Assembly (NCBI RefSeq): GCF_003711805.1
Contig: NZ_QXCP01000006.1
Span: forward strand, 310,001-374,000
Direction: 5' to 3'
Source: Brachybacterium sp. EE-P12
GTDB taxonomy: Bacteria > Actinomycetota > Actinomycetes > Actinomycetales > Dermabacteraceae
DNA: 64,000 nucleotides
The translations under genes were made by a program, and so were the position numbers. A model generated the notes under the pieces. It made no database searches, was not told where the DNA came from, and saw only the letters and a program-made list of their open reading frames with translations. Positions within the stretch are counted from its first letter, which is position 1. Every line of letters begins with the position of its first letter. Below are positions 53,191 to 57,606 of this stretch, piece after piece.

Positions 53191-53244
53191 GGCCGACGGG
53201 GCCGACGGGGCCGACGGGGCCGACGGGGCCGACGGGGCCGACGG
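53191..53244. repeat. Six perfect copies of a 9-bp tandem repeat
   Basis: ggccgacgg is repeated six times without error directly after the glyS stop codon. Perfect copies suggest recent slippage and probable length variation between strains. Confidence 0.92.
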
Positions 53245-53248
53245 GCCT

Positions 53249-53290: not shown

Positions 53291-53358
53291 GGGCCGGCCC
53301 GTGACACGGCGGGGCGGGGCGGCGACGTGGCGACTCCGCGCGTGGCAGAGTGCAGCCC

Positions 53359-54399
53359 ATGACCCGCATCGCCGGCCTCGAGCTGTCCGCCGCCTATCAC
53401 GAGCAGGTCGTCGCACCGCTGCTGGAGCGCGGGCTGCCCGGGCTCCCGCACGCCGCGGCGCGACTGGGCTCCGGGTCGGACGTGCTCGGATTCGACGACG
53501 AGCAGTCGCGCGACCACGACTGGGGGCTACGGCTCACGCTGCTGGTCGAGGGCGGCGCGGCCGCGGAGGTCGACGCGCTACTCGAGCGGGAGCTGCCGGC
53601 CACCTGGCGCGGGCTCCCCACGCGCTTCGCGACCACCTGGGACCCGGTGGTCCGCCAGCGGGTCGAGGTCGCCTCCGCCGGGGACTTCGCCGCCTCCCGG
53701 GTCGGGATCGTGCCGCAGCGGCTCGTCGGCGCCGAGCCCCTCGAGCTCGAGGACTGGCTCCAGCTGACCGGACAGGCGGCGCTCGAGGTGACGGCCGGGG
53801 CGGTCCTCCACGACGGCCCGGGCGTGCTCACCGCGATCCGCACGCGGCTCGCGCAGTACCCGGAGGACGTGCGCCGGTACGCGATCGGCGCGGACTGGAC
53901 CCGCATCGGCCAGGAGCTGCCGGACGTGGGACGCGCCGGGCTGCGCGGCGACGAGGACGGCTCCGCCGTGATCGCCGCGCGCCATGTGCGCACCCTGCTG
54001 CATCTCGCCCATCTGCTGCATCGCCGGTGGGCGCCGTACGGGAAGTGGCTCGCCCGCTCCGCCGCCGCGCTCCCGGGCGGGGACGCCTTGCGCACGGCCG
54101 TGCTCGAGGTGCTCGGCGCGCCCGACTGGCGCACCCGGCAGCAGACCCTCGCCGCGGCGATCGAGCACGTCGCCGCGACCCAGGGCCGGGTGGGACTGCC
54201 CACCCTCGACCCCGCCACCGAGGCCTTCTTCGACCGCCCCCACGTGGGGCTCCGAGGGCTCCCGGAGCTGCTCGCGCAGGAGATCGTCAACCCGGACGTG
54301 CGAGCGTTGCGGCCCGGGATCGGCACCGCGGAGCAGATCAGCGACCACGTGAGCGTGCTGGTCGACCCCGCGCTGCGCCGACGGCTCGTCGGCGGCTGA
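53359..54399 (+). CDS. DUF4037 domain-containing protein
   Basis: The 346-residue protein begins RIAGLELSAAYHEQVVAPLL and has RLGSGSDVLGFDDEQSRDHDWG, where the GSGSD...D.SRDHDWG pattern recalls a nucleotidyltransferase fold, the assigned similarity for DUF4037. A helical C-terminal half with LLHLAHLLHRRWAPYGKWLA follows. The reaction is unknown. The ATG at 53359 is supported by a CAGAGT hexamer seven bases upstream; a GTG at 53350 would extend it by three residues into that hexamer and is rejected. Confidence 0.8.
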   Translation: MTRIAGLELSAAYHEQVVAPLLERGLPGLPHAAARLGSGSDVLGFDDEQSRDHDWGLRLTLLVEGGAAAEVDALLERELPATWRGLPTRFATTWDPVVRQRVEVASAGDFAASRVGIVPQRLVGAEPLELEDWLQLTGQAALEVTAGAVLHDGPGVLTAIRTRLAQYPEDVRRYAIGADWTRIGQELPDVGRAGLRGDEDGSAVIAARHVRTLLHLAHLLHRRWAPYGKWLARSAAALPGGDALRTAVLEVLGAPDWRTRQQTLAAAIEHVAATQGRVGLPTLDPATEAFFDRPHVGLRGLPELLAQEIVNPDVRALRPGIGTAEQISDHVSVLVDPALRRRLVGG

Positions 54400-54433: not shown

Positions 54434-54458
54434 GCTGATCCGTCCCGGGTTGATCAGC
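54434..54458. promoter_or_regulatory. Inverted repeat upstream of the ClpP pair
   Basis: gctgatc-N11-gatcagc lies about 40-65 bases before a -10-like CAGTCT (54498-54503), which is six bases from the ATG at 54510. Its position suits an activator such as the PopR-like protein encoded at the other end of the locus. Confidence 0.4.
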
Positions 54459-54509
54459 ACGGGGCGGAGAAGGGGATCGCCGGGCCCGGCGGCGACGCAG
54501 TCTGGGGCC

Positions 54510-55175
54510 ATGACCACTGACACCCTCCCTCCGCCCCGACTCCAGGACGCCGAGAGCCCCGCCCCGGAGCCCCTCGGCAGCCTGACCGCCACCAGACTCC
54601 TCCACCAGCGCGTGCTGCTGCTGGATCGCGAGCTCGAGCAGGTGGGCGGCGCGGCGCTGGCCGCACAGCTGCTCCTGCTCGCCGCCGAGGACCCCGCCGC
54701 CGACATCACCCTGCTGATCAGCTCCCCCGGCGGACTGGTGCCCGCGATGCTCGCCATCGGCGACCTGATGGACCTCGTCCCCTGCGACGTGCGCACGGTG
54801 GCGCTGGGCATGGCCTACAGCGCCGGGCAGTACCTCCTCACCCAGGGCACGCCCGGGAAGCGATACGTGCTGCCCCGCTCCCAGGTGCTCATGCACCAGG
54901 GCTCGGCCGGCTTCGGCGGCAGCGCCGCCGACATCGAGCTGCAGGCCGAGGACCTGCGCCGCAACCGCGACCTGCTGATCCGCCTGACCGCCGAGCGCAC
55001 CGGGCAGAGCGAGGAGACGATCGCCCGGGACTCCGAGCGGGACCGGATCTGGGACGCCGAGGGCGCGGTCGCCTACGGCTTCGCCGACCACGTCGCCCGC
55101 GACCTCGGCGAGATCCTGCCGCTCGGATCGACCGGCTCCCGGGGCCGCACCGCGGGGATCGGCGGCGGGCGATGA
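54510..55175 (+). CDS. ClpP-like serine protease subunit (accessory, catalytic)
   Basis: The 221-residue protein is a ClpP homologue. The oxyanion region is LISSPGGLVPAMLAIGDLMD, the nucleophile Ser104 is in LGMAYSAGQYLLTQGTPGKR, His129 is in VLMHQGSAG, and the Asp is in TIARDSERDRIW. All three catalytic residues are present. An N-terminal extension of about 25 Pro-rich residues is present. The protein lies with a second ClpP-like gene (4-bp overlap) and a PopR-like regulator, as with clpP3-clpP4-popR in Streptomyces, so this is probably an accessory rather than the housekeeping protease; no clpX is nearby. Confidence 0.88.
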   Translation: MTTDTLPPPRLQDAESPAPEPLGSLTATRLLHQRVLLLDRELEQVGGAALAAQLLLLAAEDPAADITLLISSPGGLVPAMLAIGDLMDLVPCDVRTVALGMAYSAGQYLLTQGTPGKRYVLPRSQVLMHQGSAGFGGSAADIELQAEDLRRNRDLLIRLTAERTGQSEETIARDSERDRIWDAEGAVAYGFADHVARDLGEILPLGSTGSRGRTAGIGGGR

Positions 55176-55774
55176 GCAGCTACACCATCCCGTCGGTCAT
55201 CGAGCGCACCCACACCGGGGCCGAGCGCAGCGCGGACGTCTTCTCCCGTCTGCTCAGCGACCGCATCGTCTACCTCGGCACCCCGGTCGACGACGGCGTC
55301 GCGAACACCGTGATCGCCCAGATCCTGCACCTGGAGAACGACTCCGCCGACGCCCCGATCCATCTGTACCTCAACTCCTCGGGCGGGGACGTGCAGGCGG
55401 TGCTCGCCATCTACGACACCCTCGCCTATGTGCGCAGCCGCGTGGCGGTGACCTGCATCGGCCAGGTCATCGCCGCGCCCGTGCTGCTGCTGGCCGCGGG
55501 GACCCCGGGGATGCGCTGGGTGCTGCCGCACACCCGGGTGGTGCTCCATCCGCTCGAGGCGCAGGGCCGCGGGGCGGTGCCCGATCTGATCCTGGCGACC
55601 GAGGAGGTGCAGCGGCTGCGCGGCGATCTCGAGACGCTCCTGGCCGAGCACTCCGGGCAGCAGCGGGAGAAGGTGCGGCGGGACCTCGAGCGCGAGCGCG
55701 TGCTGGATGCGTCCGCAGCCGTCGACTACGGCCTGGCCGACGAGGTGCTGCTCAGGCGGCCGCGAGCAGGGTGA
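55172..55774 (+). CDS. ClpP-like subunit lacking the catalytic serine
   Basis: The 200-residue protein is ClpP-like along its length: RIVYLGTPVDDGVANTVIAQ, LYLNSSGGDVQAVLAIYDTL, LAAGTPGMRWVLPHTRVVLH and RDLERERVLDASAAVDYGLAD. The nucleophile site reads TCIGQVIAAPVLLL, where the Ser of GQAAS is Ala101. The His (VVLHP) and Asp (RRDLERE) are kept. It is therefore predicted to be inactive, like ClpR-type subunits, and to form mixed rings with the upstream ClpP. The ATG overlaps the stop of that gene by 4 bases. The 3' end overlaps convergent popR by 23 bases. Confidence 0.85.
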   Translation: MSSYTIPSVIERTHTGAERSADVFSRLLSDRIVYLGTPVDDGVANTVIAQILHLENDSADAPIHLYLNSSGGDVQAVLAIYDTLAYVRSRVAVTCIGQVIAAPVLLLAAGTPGMRWVLPHTRVVLHPLEAQGRGAVPDLILATEEVQRLRGDLETLLAEHSGQQREKVRRDLERERVLDASAAVDYGLADEVLLRRPRAG

Positions 55775-56174
55775 CGCCCGGCGCCCCGGGCGGCGAGGGT
55801 GCGCCCCGGAGCTGCACAGCACCGGGGCCGCGCGCCCCGGCCGCGGCGCCGTGCGAGCCGTCGGGCGAGGAGCGCAGGTCGAGCACGGCCGCGCCGGCCT
55901 GCCGCGCGGTGCCGCTGCGGTCCTCGGCGTGCAGCAGGGAGGCGTCGGCCGCGCGGAGCAGGAGCAGCGGGACCTCGATACCGAGGGCGCCGAGGATCGC
56001 GGCGAGCAGCTCCGAGGAGGGGTCCTTGCGTCCCCGCTCGACATCGGAGAGATGCTGCATGGACACCCCGGCCGCGGCCGCGACCTCGGCGAGGGTGCGG
56101 CGCTGCCGGTGCCTCTCGGCCCGCAGCTCCGCCCCCATCAGCTCCCGCAGCAGCGGCTCGAGGTGAGAGTCCAT
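55752..56174 (-). CDS. popR: XRE-family regulator, PopR/ClgR-like
   Basis: The 140-residue protein has an N-terminal XRE HTH matching the ClgR/PopR type: LRAERHRQRRTLAEVAAAAG, VSMQHLSDVERGRKDPSSEL and LLAAILGALGIEV. The C-terminal half is Ala/Gly-rich and ends GVTLLAAA, like an LAA-type ClpP degron. In Streptomyces PopR activates clpP3-clpP4 and is removed by the main Clp protease through its terminal Ala residues. Here it is convergent to a ClpP pair. TAGTCT lies exactly seven bases upstream of ATG 56174, so a leaderless mRNA is expected. A small dyad (gggcg-gaag-cgccc, 56224-56237) lies upstream and may be an operator. Confidence 0.78.
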   Translation of the reverse strand: MDSHLEPLLRELMGAELRAERHRQRRTLAEVAAAAGVSMQHLSDVERGRKDPSSELLAAILGALGIEVPLLLLRAADASLLHAEDRSGTARQAGAAVLDLRSSPDGSHGAAAGARGPGAVQLRGAPSPPGAPGVTLLAAA

Positions 56175-56311: not shown

Positions 56312-57406
56312 TCAGGGCAGGGCGACCAGCAGATGCGGCAGGACGTGCCGGGCGAAGGTGTCGAGGATCCGGGTGCTGTCCTCGAGCGGGGAGCCGGCGG
56401 GGAGCACGAGCGCGATCTCGTCGGCCTCGAGCACCACCGGGTCCGCCAGCAGCGCCTGCGCGACGGCGACCGGCTCGTCGAGCACCACCTTCCCGTAGAC
56501 CGCGCTGCGACCGCCGAGCTCGGTGCGGCGATGCTCGGCGAGCACCCCGGGCTCGGCGGAGCGCTCGCGCGGGATCAGGGTCGTGTATCGCTCGAGCTCG
56601 GCCTCGTCCCGGACGGGCAGCATCTGCCGGCTGACCATGACCCGGCCCTCGCCGTTCCCGGAGGCGCGAGAGGCCTCGCGATAGGCGCGCAGCGCCTCGA
56701 GCTGGAGCTGCTCGAAGGACCGCCCGGAGCCGTCGTCCGGAGCCATGGTCGCCAGCTGCAGGCCCAGGCCCAGTCGACCCGCCATCGCGGCGCGCTCGGG
56801 GCTCGCCGCCCCATAGGCGAGGCGCTCGCGCAGCCCCGGTGCCTGCGGCTGCAGGCGCAGCGGTGCCCCCGGCTCGACCTCCTCGACATGCGCATCGGCG
56901 CCTGCGACGATCTCCCCGTCGACGAAGGAGAGCAGGTCGTGCAGGATCCGGTCCACGTGGTCGCGGTGGTCGCCGTGCTGGGTCCCGAAGGCACGGGCGT
57001 ACATCGCGTCGTGCGCCGAGTAACCGGGGCCGAGGCCGGCACGCAGCCGCCCGCCGGTCAGCAGATGCGCGGTGGCCAGGTCCTCCGCGAGCCGGCCGGC
57101 GTTCTCGAAGCGCAGCGGGATCACTGCGGTGCCGAGCTCGATGCGCTCGGTGCGCTGGGCGAGAGCGGCGAGGAACAGCAGAGGCGAGGACAGGGCCTGC
57201 TGCAGGTGCCGCACTCGCACATAGCCCGCGTCGTAGCCGAGCGCCTCGGCGGCGCGGAACAGCGAGGACCCTGCGTCCAGATCGCCGTGGTCCACCTGGG
57301 CGACGACGGCGATGCGCGGGGCGGCGAGCCCGGCGGCGGTCGCGTCGGCCGCGCGGGTCGCGCCCGAGGGATCTGAAGGGGATCGGTCAGCGGGGGATGT
57401 CATCAT
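56312..57406 (-). CDS. LLM class flavin-dependent oxidoreductase
   Basis: The 364-residue protein is of the bacterial luciferase-like family: PLLFLAALAQRTERIELGTAVIPL, GRLRAGLGPGYSAHDAMYARAF and LAYGAASPERAAMAGRLGLG. It would use reduced FMN or F420 to oxidise or reduce a small molecule; the substrate is unknown. The start ATG at 57406 has GAAGGAGG six bases upstream, the best ribosome site in this region, and is preferred to the upstream ATG at 57448. It is upstream of popR in the same direction with a 137-base gap that must hold the popR promoter. Confidence 0.85.
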   Translation of the reverse strand: MMTSPADRSPSDPSGATRAADATAAGLAAPRIAVVAQVDHGDLDAGSSLFRAAEALGYDAGYVRVRHLQQALSSPLLFLAALAQRTERIELGTAVIPLRFENAGRLAEDLATAHLLTGGRLRAGLGPGYSAHDAMYARAFGTQHGDHRDHVDRILHDLLSFVDGEIVAGADAHVEEVEPGAPLRLQPQAPGLRERLAYGAASPERAAMAGRLGLGLQLATMAPDDGSGRSFEQLQLEALRAYREASRASGNGEGRVMVSRQMLPVRDEAELERYTTLIPRERSAEPGVLAEHRRTELGGRSAVYGKVVLDEPVAVAQALLADPVVLEADEIALVLPAGSPLEDSTRILDTFARHVLPHLLVALP

Positions 57407-57606
57407 GCCGCGCCTCCTTCGGGTGATGTCCTCGGCGATCGGCGGCATCCGGCGCCGGGGAGTGGTGCCGATGCCCCATTCTCCCTCGCCCGGGCTCGCC
57501 CGGAAGGGGACCGAGGACCCGGAGCGGTCCTCCCCACCGCGGCTCGATGCACATCACCTCCCAGGGCCTCCCGAACGTCCGCCCAGGATGGGACAATCCA
57601 GGGACG

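Follow-up and report, generated by a model that had tools for sequence, protein, structure and literature searches.

It has long been asked, mostly of plastids and cyanobacteria, why inactive subunits are present in some Clp protease cores. The question is raised for an actinobacterium by a locus of Brachybacterium sp. EE-P12: in the window (the whole stretch of DNA that was analysed, 64,000 nucleotides of contig NZ_QXCP01000006.1), two tandem clpP genes encode one subunit with a catalytic triad and another without. What part is left to a ClpP subunit that has lost its triad?

Organization of the clpP3-clpP4 locus

As an earlier note on this DNA had claimed, two overlapping clpP-like genes are present on the plus strand: clpP3 (54510..55175, 221 amino acids) and clpP4 (55172..55774, 200 amino acids), the products of which match PF00574 (CLP_protease) with 170.6 and 187.1 bits, respectively. 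The stop codon of clpP3 and the start codon of clpP4 share an ATGA on the plus strand (55172..55175), an overlap that is likely to couple their translation. The AlphaFold model of ClpP4 has a confident ClpP fold (pLDDT 86.8, pTM 0.81), and its top Foldseek match is the M. tuberculosis ClpP1P2 chain 6iw7_J (TM 0.89/0.91). A DUF4037 gene (53350-54399) lies on the clpP3 side of the module; on the other side is a convergent minus-strand gene (55752..56174) for a PopR-like HTH regulator of the ClgR family (protein P0002), beyond which is a minus-strand gene for a luciferase-like monooxygenase (56312-57448). At 53191-53245 of the window, directly after a glycyl-tRNA synthetase-like gene, there is a perfect 9-base tandem repeat (GGCCGACGG, 6.1 copies).

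The 3.96 Mb genome encodes four ClpP proteins, two of them in the clpP3-clpP4 pair and two in the housekeeping clpP1-clpP2 pair. Some 1.2 kb after the latter comes a match to the Clp ATPase C-terminal domain, in a ClpX-sized frame, and two larger Clp ATPases are encoded away from the housekeeping pair. A second tandem clpP pair beside clpP1P2 and, in the same place, a convergent gene for a ClgR-family regulator with an Ala-Ala end are features shared with S. lividans, the PopR-clpP3-clpP4 module of which was described by Viala et al. (2000, 2002), as recounted in parts of PMC9765437, PMC12607617 and PMC9775585. By its gene content, the Brachybacterium locus is a PopR-ClpP3-ClpP4 module as in Streptomyces. 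The "distinct inducible protease system" suggested earlier would fit, but the module is that of Streptomyces.

Catalytic residues

The triads were placed by spacing, with His at S+25 and Asp at S+74. The triad of E. coli ClpP, which we take to be S97/H122/D171, has its Asp at S+74, a spacing that also fits ClpP1 and ClpP3 of this genome. The residues so assigned, with which alignments agree, are S104/H129/D178 in ClpP3, S107/H132/D181 in ClpP1, and A101/H126/E175 in ClpP4; ClpP2 (S127/H152/D204) has three extra residues between His and Asp, and both ClpP1 and ClpP2 have full triads. Taking Ser-His-Asp as the mark of an active ClpP peptidase, ClpP3 has it and is predicted to be catalytically competent (its score against the TIGR00493 equivalog model, 156.4 bits, is below the cut-off of 308.6), whereas ClpP4 lacks it. 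The triad first proposed for ClpP3 was correct. The second protein had been said to have Ala101 with both His and Asp kept: Ala101 (codon 55472..55474, plus strand) and His126 were confirmed, but Asp was not, as D171 of ClpP4 is at the S+70 position and hence is no triad residue, and the triad Asp site is occupied by Glu175 (codon 55694..55696, plus strand).

A shifted nucleophile Ser in ClpP4 was ruled out by alignment, the nucleophile column being Ala in all 21 Brachybacterium orthologs; outside the genus this column can hold Gly, Glu, Trp or Phe. It is barely credible, given such residues, that ClpP4 keeps or has gained hydrolysis by means of another residue, even with Glu175 and His126 present. 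A natural triad defect in one subunit of a heteromer is known from Listeria monocytogenes, where ClpP1 with Asn for Asp works in the heterocomplex with ClpP2 (PMC9765437, in part), but there a single substitution is involved and the triad is realigned in the heterocomplex, whereas in Brachybacterium ClpP4 the nucleophile itself is gone. Ala was also aligned at the nucleophile in three ClpP chains of the PDB (8xon_H, 8xn4_H and 8xop_H), which probably represent an engineered Ser-to-Ala mutant. No statement that ClpP4 lacks catalytic residues was found in the portions of the Clp literature searched (including PMC8182300 and PMC7142297); the founding papers of 2000-2002 may mention it.

Conservation and selection within Brachybacterium

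An ortholog of ClpP4 was found in 21 of 38 Brachybacterium genomes, namely that of the window and 20 others at 75-91% identity. All 21 have Ala at the nucleophile position and Glu at the Asp position, with His in 17 and Arg in four. The S-H-D triad of ClpP3 is present in 20 of the 21 loci, the exception being B. halotolerans (L139, L017), in which clpP3 is ended by an in-frame stop ahead of the catalytic Asp and the adjoining clpP4 stays open. The ATGA overlap was found in 20 of the 20 loci where clpP3 reads through, a count that leaves the B. halotolerans locus aside.

The median dN/dS over the shared core was 0.25 for clpP4 and 0.20 for clpP3 (20 species, 190 pairs each), as against 0.11 for clpP1 and 0.07 for clpP2 (11 sequences, 55 pairs each), the latter set comprising loci of this genome and ten others, mostly of other species than the clpP3/clpP4 set. 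The sets are without B. halotolerans (L017). Untrimmed values, which include sequence before the true starts, run higher (0.32 for clpP3, 0.31 for clpP4, 0.18 for clpP1 and 0.14 for clpP2). Because its dN/dS is 0.25 over the shared core, clpP4 is held by purifying selection, less tightly than the housekeeping pair, and a ratio well below 1 rules it out as a pseudogene. It is very improbable that clpP4 is a decaying or neutral gene with a triad lost by drift. In favour of decay, its dN/dS exceeds those of clpP1 and clpP2, clpP3 of B. halotolerans is interrupted, and 17 of the 38 genomes (five of them less than 90% complete) have no ClpP4 match of ortholog strength, but the ratio is far under 1 and similar to that of the active partner, and the start overlap, N-loop and docking Tyr have been kept while the triad was lost more than once.

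Triad states of ClpP4 across Actinomycetota

Broken ClpP4 triads are frequent beyond the genus: they were found in 28 of 57 loci of an order sample, seven of which are from Brachybacterium, in 36 of 50 loci of a class sample, and in 29 of 29 pairs of Streptomycetaceae. The order sample consisted of 198 genomes, 59 with matches of ClpP4 strength, from which G124 and G067 (matches at contig ends) were left out. The class sample consisted of 197 genomes, with matches taken best-first; of its 71 loci, 50 have a pair of the ClpP4 clade, 16 have one of the ClpP2 clade, and five have neither (L257, which has E-H-N and a missing partner, L307, L309, L310 and L311). Genomes were drawn evenly, and a few loci are common to the two samples. 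The Streptomycetaceae sample of 61 genomes yielded 30 loci, G256 and weaker matches being outside it; the locus without a pair, L240, has a lone ClpP with an intact S-H-D triad. The triad of the housekeeping ClpP2 is intact in 29 of 29 sampled.

When named genomes were scanned with a pattern that has Ala or Gly at the ClpP4 nucleophile, at least 118 stretches matched. All 118 that were listed contain ClpP-like frames, and at least 110 loci pair a ClpP3 with a ClpP4 whose triad is broken, as follows from the pattern used; these pairs are from at least 42 genera, 25 families and 13 orders named, in the Actinomycetota. Eight of the 118 are without such a pair, most of them cut at the locus end. 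Among these, L100 (Tsukamurella spumae) has a ClpP4-like sequence divided over two reading frames, and L134 and L156 have one ClpP each. L134, a 3.8 kb contig of a Planctomycetota MAG and thus outside Actinomycetota, encodes one ClpP in which the nucleophile is Gly and both His and Asp are kept, and either misbinning or a separate loss could account for it; the lone ClpP of L156 (contig end of an Actinomycetes MAG) has Ala at the nucleophile in surroundings more ClpP2-like than ClpP4-like. The genome of L161 (Actinomadura livida, G232) has six ClpP matches, with a third tandem pair besides the housekeeping and ClpP3P4 pairs.

An intact ClpP4 triad was found in 43 of 244 distinct ClpP3-ClpP4 pairs, a set that conveys breadth and no rate, as 106 of the pairs came from the Ala/Gly scan alone and four more were also found by it. 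Without the 106, ClpP4 is broken in 95 of 138 distinct pairs. The S-H-D triad of ClpP3 is present in 240 of the 244, the other four being the B. halotolerans stop and three frames cut by locus ends.

The residues that replace the triad differ between lineages. In Brachybacterium, Ser (to Ala) and Asp (to Glu) were lost, and in four of 21 cases also His (to Arg). The ClpP4 proteins of Streptomycetaceae pairs are likewise without an intact triad (29 of 29, with S. lividans ClpP4 itself outside the rows read), but most of them (22 of 29; 21 S-G-D and one S-G-E) have kept Ser and lost His to Gly (RVLL[G]QP rather than RVLL[H]QP). From their family and their PopR boxes, we infer that the S-G-D rows are Streptomyces. 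Other states include A-R-D, A-S-D, G-H-D, F-H-N, W-H-T, S-H-N, S-H-H, S-H-S, E-H-N, E-H-H and S-D-D.

Number of triad losses

A quick tree of 99 representatives was made with the triad columns removed (no bootstrap; 37 of 96 inner branches unsupported), on which the intact and broken states need at least five changes by undirected parsimony, a working number. A single ancestral loss of the triad, with all 72 broken rows together, was rejected (AU p = 0.0201), and so was a single ancestral loss of the nucleophile (AU p = 0.0214). Separate routes of loss on this tree include a clade of S-G-D and S-G-E (SH-aLRT 100), a clade with S-H-H, S-H-S, S-H-N, E-H-N and E-H-H (SH-aLRT 99), and S-D-D beside an intact sister (SH-aLRT 96). 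The rows with Ser changed to Ala or Gly represent a further route. Asp-only changes, which account for three of the 99 rows, may leave activity unabolished. On this tree, the ClpP4 triad has been broken more than once within the family, by differing residues.

Brachybacterium ClpP4 groups with ClpP4 of Streptomycetaceae apart from ClpP2 (89 ClpP4-type versus 10 ClpP2-type rows, SH-aLRT 100 on the 99-row tree), a branch with a support of only 35 in a FastTree of 544 rows. The first and second genes of the pairs are on opposite sides of one branch of the 544-row tree with no exception; on this evidence, ClpP4 belongs to the ClpP2 type, and ClpP3 to that of ClpP1.

ATPase docking and complementary loss

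Three ATPase-docking positions (E. coli Y74, Y76 and F96) were taken from the relevant part of PMC9765437. They correspond to T67, L69 and L89 in ClpP3 of this genome and to H64, Y66 and Y86 in ClpP4. An N-loop proline that is linked to chaperone binding and found in ClpP2 (PMC4416901, in part) is contained in the YTIPSV sequence of ClpP4, and the IP motif is absent from ClpP3. The same split runs through the distinct pairs: the third docking position is non-aromatic (counting His as aromatic) in 234 of the 240 ClpP3 proteins readable there, 238 of 240 ClpP4 have retained the central Tyr, versus 60 of 240 ClpP3, and an N-loop motif of the Y-x-I-P type is present in 242 of 244 ClpP4 versus 0 of 244 ClpP3. 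ClpP3 seems to have kept cutting and lost the docking site, and ClpP4 to have kept the docking site and lost cutting. The third position has been lost from ClpP3 even beside an intact ClpP4 (37 of 43), and therefore the division of labour is probably older than the loss of the ClpP4 triad.

An asymmetry in the same sense is seen in ClpP1P2 of Streptomyces and M. tuberculosis, in which, according to parts of PMC9765437 and PMC4416901, ClpP2 docks the ATPase and ClpP1 does most of the work, the active sites of ClpP2 being dispensable in the assays reported. In Streptomyces, full activity is left with ClpP2 S131A and none with ClpP1 S113A, and all three ATPases depend on the ClpP2 pocket alone (PMC9765437); propeptide processing in M. 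tuberculosis is completed by cores in which the ClpP1 ring is active and the ClpP2 ring inactive (PMC4416901). Since ClpP4 is of the ClpP2 type, ClpP4 would dock and ClpP3 would cut. Unlike ClpP3-ClpP4, both subunits of ClpP1P2 keep full triads, so that the division of labour appears further advanced in the accessory pair.

The pairing of an active with an inactive subunit, as first proposed, is supported, and the two very likely form one heteromeric core. Two stacked homo-heptamers are more likely than the obligate mixed rings proposed along with this pairing, since docking pocket and N-loop are split as in ClpP1P2. In mixed rings, heptamers would hold both subunits and ClpP4 would dilute the active sites and tune gating, as for cyanobacterial ClpP3/R, an active/inactive pair that forms alternating 3:4 rings (PMC4673316, in part); the ATGA overlap would help to produce ClpP3 and ClpP4 in matched amounts. 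Such rings are unlikely, however, given that pockets and N-loops are gone from ClpP3 and kept in ClpP4, that the same pattern occurs in actinobacterial ClpP1P2, where ATPases are on the ClpP2 face only (PMC4416901, PMC9765437, in part), and that many pockets of a mixed ring would miss an aromatic side.

PopR-like regulator and putative operator

The PopR-like regulator that had been suggested is real, and its sequence ends in TLLAAA. P0002 scores 73.3 bits against the ClgR model, below the cut-off of 170, and is ClgR-like but no ClgR by that model; a second ClgR-like gene elsewhere in the genome (111.9 bits, also below the cut-off) has no Ala-Ala end. Of the 244 distinct-pair loci, 224 have a PopR-like gene, which in 223 of them is on the opposite strand; ten of the 20 loci without a match have less than 500 bases left downstream. 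In five of eight A-R-D loci of the order sample (L066, L069 and L071-L073), the regulator match is about 2.5 kb downstream of clpP4, not adjoining. The regulator ends in Ala-Ala, the reported degradation signal of ClgR (PMC9775585, in part), in 200 of 224 cases, whereas the same ending is found in 10 ClpP3 and 22 ClpP4 proteins, out of 244 of each.

The S. lividans PopR box (TCTGCC-N3-GGC) was found upstream of clpP3 in 0 of 21 Brachybacterium loci. In Streptomycetaceae, 19 of 29 loci have it, compared with 55 of 600 stretches taken from these loci at random. It is one lineage's box, and its absence therefore limits the claim to the wider module rather than the S. lividans regulon. Instead, a GCTGATCMGC element occurs in the 410 bases around the clpP3 start in 16 of 21 Brachybacterium loci, more often than in 410-base stretches drawn at random from these loci, some of which may contain the element itself (59 of 420; Fisher p ~1e-9). 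In the window, only one-mismatch copies are found upstream of clpP3: an inverted element GCTGATC...GATCAGC (54434..54460, no strand assigned) with three one-mismatch matches is a candidate operator, weak in the window itself. The lone exact match to the longer pattern falls within clpP3 (54713-54724); over the whole window 18 matches were counted, with 9.8 expected.

A proposed two-ring core

The reading to which we give a probability of roughly 0.7 is that the locus encodes an accessory, probably inducible two-ring core under PopR-like control, in which a ClpP4 ring docks the ATPase without cutting and a ClpP3 ring cuts without docking. Gene order and synteny, the triad states, the opposite losses of catalytic and docking residues, and the Ala-Ala end of the regulator are observed; we infer the assembly, ring make-up, activity and regulation of this core as follows. 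ClpP3 and ClpP4 would each form a seven-membered ring, one of each stacking into a 14-mer. The ClpP4 ring, with its N-loops and aromatic pockets, would dock ClpX or ClpC and feed substrate without cutting it, and the ClpP3 ring would hold all seven active sites and be unable to dock an ATPase. The clpP3-clpP4 operon is probably activated by the PopR-like regulator, which in turn is probably removed by housekeeping ClpP1P2 by way of its C-terminal Ala-Ala, so that upon failure of ClpP1P2 the spare core would appear. For viability, S. lividans requires one of its two pairs, clpP1clpP2 or clpP3clpP4 (PMC9765437, in part), and with the broken triad of Streptomycetaceae ClpP4 in such pairs, this requirement fits the proposal.

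It is quite unlikely that, instead of forming a separate protease, ClpP4 (or ClpP3) acts chiefly by pairing with one of the housekeeping subunits, ClpP1 or ClpP2, and so modifies or blocks ClpP1P2. ClpP_ADEP of S. hawaiiensis does disrupt ClpP1P2 and pair with ClpP2 (PMC12607617, in part), but the ClpP3 triad is kept in 240 of 244 pairs, the rest being interrupted or cut, which points to a need for cutting by ClpP3, and S. lividans lives on either pair, so that clpP3clpP4 can serve alone (PMC9765437).

Several observations count against the two-ring core. Loss of the ClpP4 triad is not required, as 43 of 244 pairs have it intact. The triad of housekeeping ClpP2 is kept although its Ser is dispensable in vitro, and an inactive docking ring may thus carry some cost. 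Induction by loss of ClpP1P2 is known, in the sources consulted in part, from Streptomyces only, and the S. lividans PopR box is missing from all 21 Brachybacterium loci. The S. cattleya homologs called ClpP1, ClpP3, ClpP4 and ClpP5 each shortened the half-life of a substrate when present singly with ClpX in E. coli (PMC4989188, in part); the BL21 host presumably has a ClpP of its own, and the numbering may differ. No biochemistry on the Brachybacterium pair was found in the Clp literature searched.

Relation to ClpR and significance

The likeness to ClpR of cyanobacteria and plastids, drawn in the earlier note, would extend to function, an inactive paralog (A101/E175) accompanying a triad-bearing partner, and, as far as tested, not to descent. 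ClpP4 scores 128.8 bits against NF009204, presumably the cyanobacterial ClpR model, which has a curated cut-off of 263. It also groups with actinobacterial ClpP2/ClpP4 in a tree without a ClpR row. As far as tested, ClpP4 would work like ClpR, yet is no ClpR by descent. Two further differences are that ClpR shares mixed rings with ClpP3 (PMC4673316, in part), whereas stacked rings are expected in Brachybacterium, and that the ClpP4 triad has been broken more than once within its family. Another difference, from the S. lividans module, is that the GCTGATCMGC element takes the place of the PopR box.

The finding holds up and has a wider reach than first noted; it is a variant of a known module, no new kind of machine. 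It is on balance probable that across Actinomycetota the docking subunit of a spare Clp protease has repeatedly and independently become a non-cutting ring, by lineage-specific residues, while its partner ring lost docking, a convergent and phylum-wide counterpart of ClpR that would include Streptomyces ClpP4. If true, the seven active sites of the spare core are all in one ring, and substrate is loaded from only one side. Several losses seem to have occurred in a single phylum in which intact forms are found next to broken ones, which makes the old question of inactive subunits testable by comparison. For ClpP3P4, the back-up protease of Streptomyces, the prediction is that ClpP4 docks and ClpP3 cuts.
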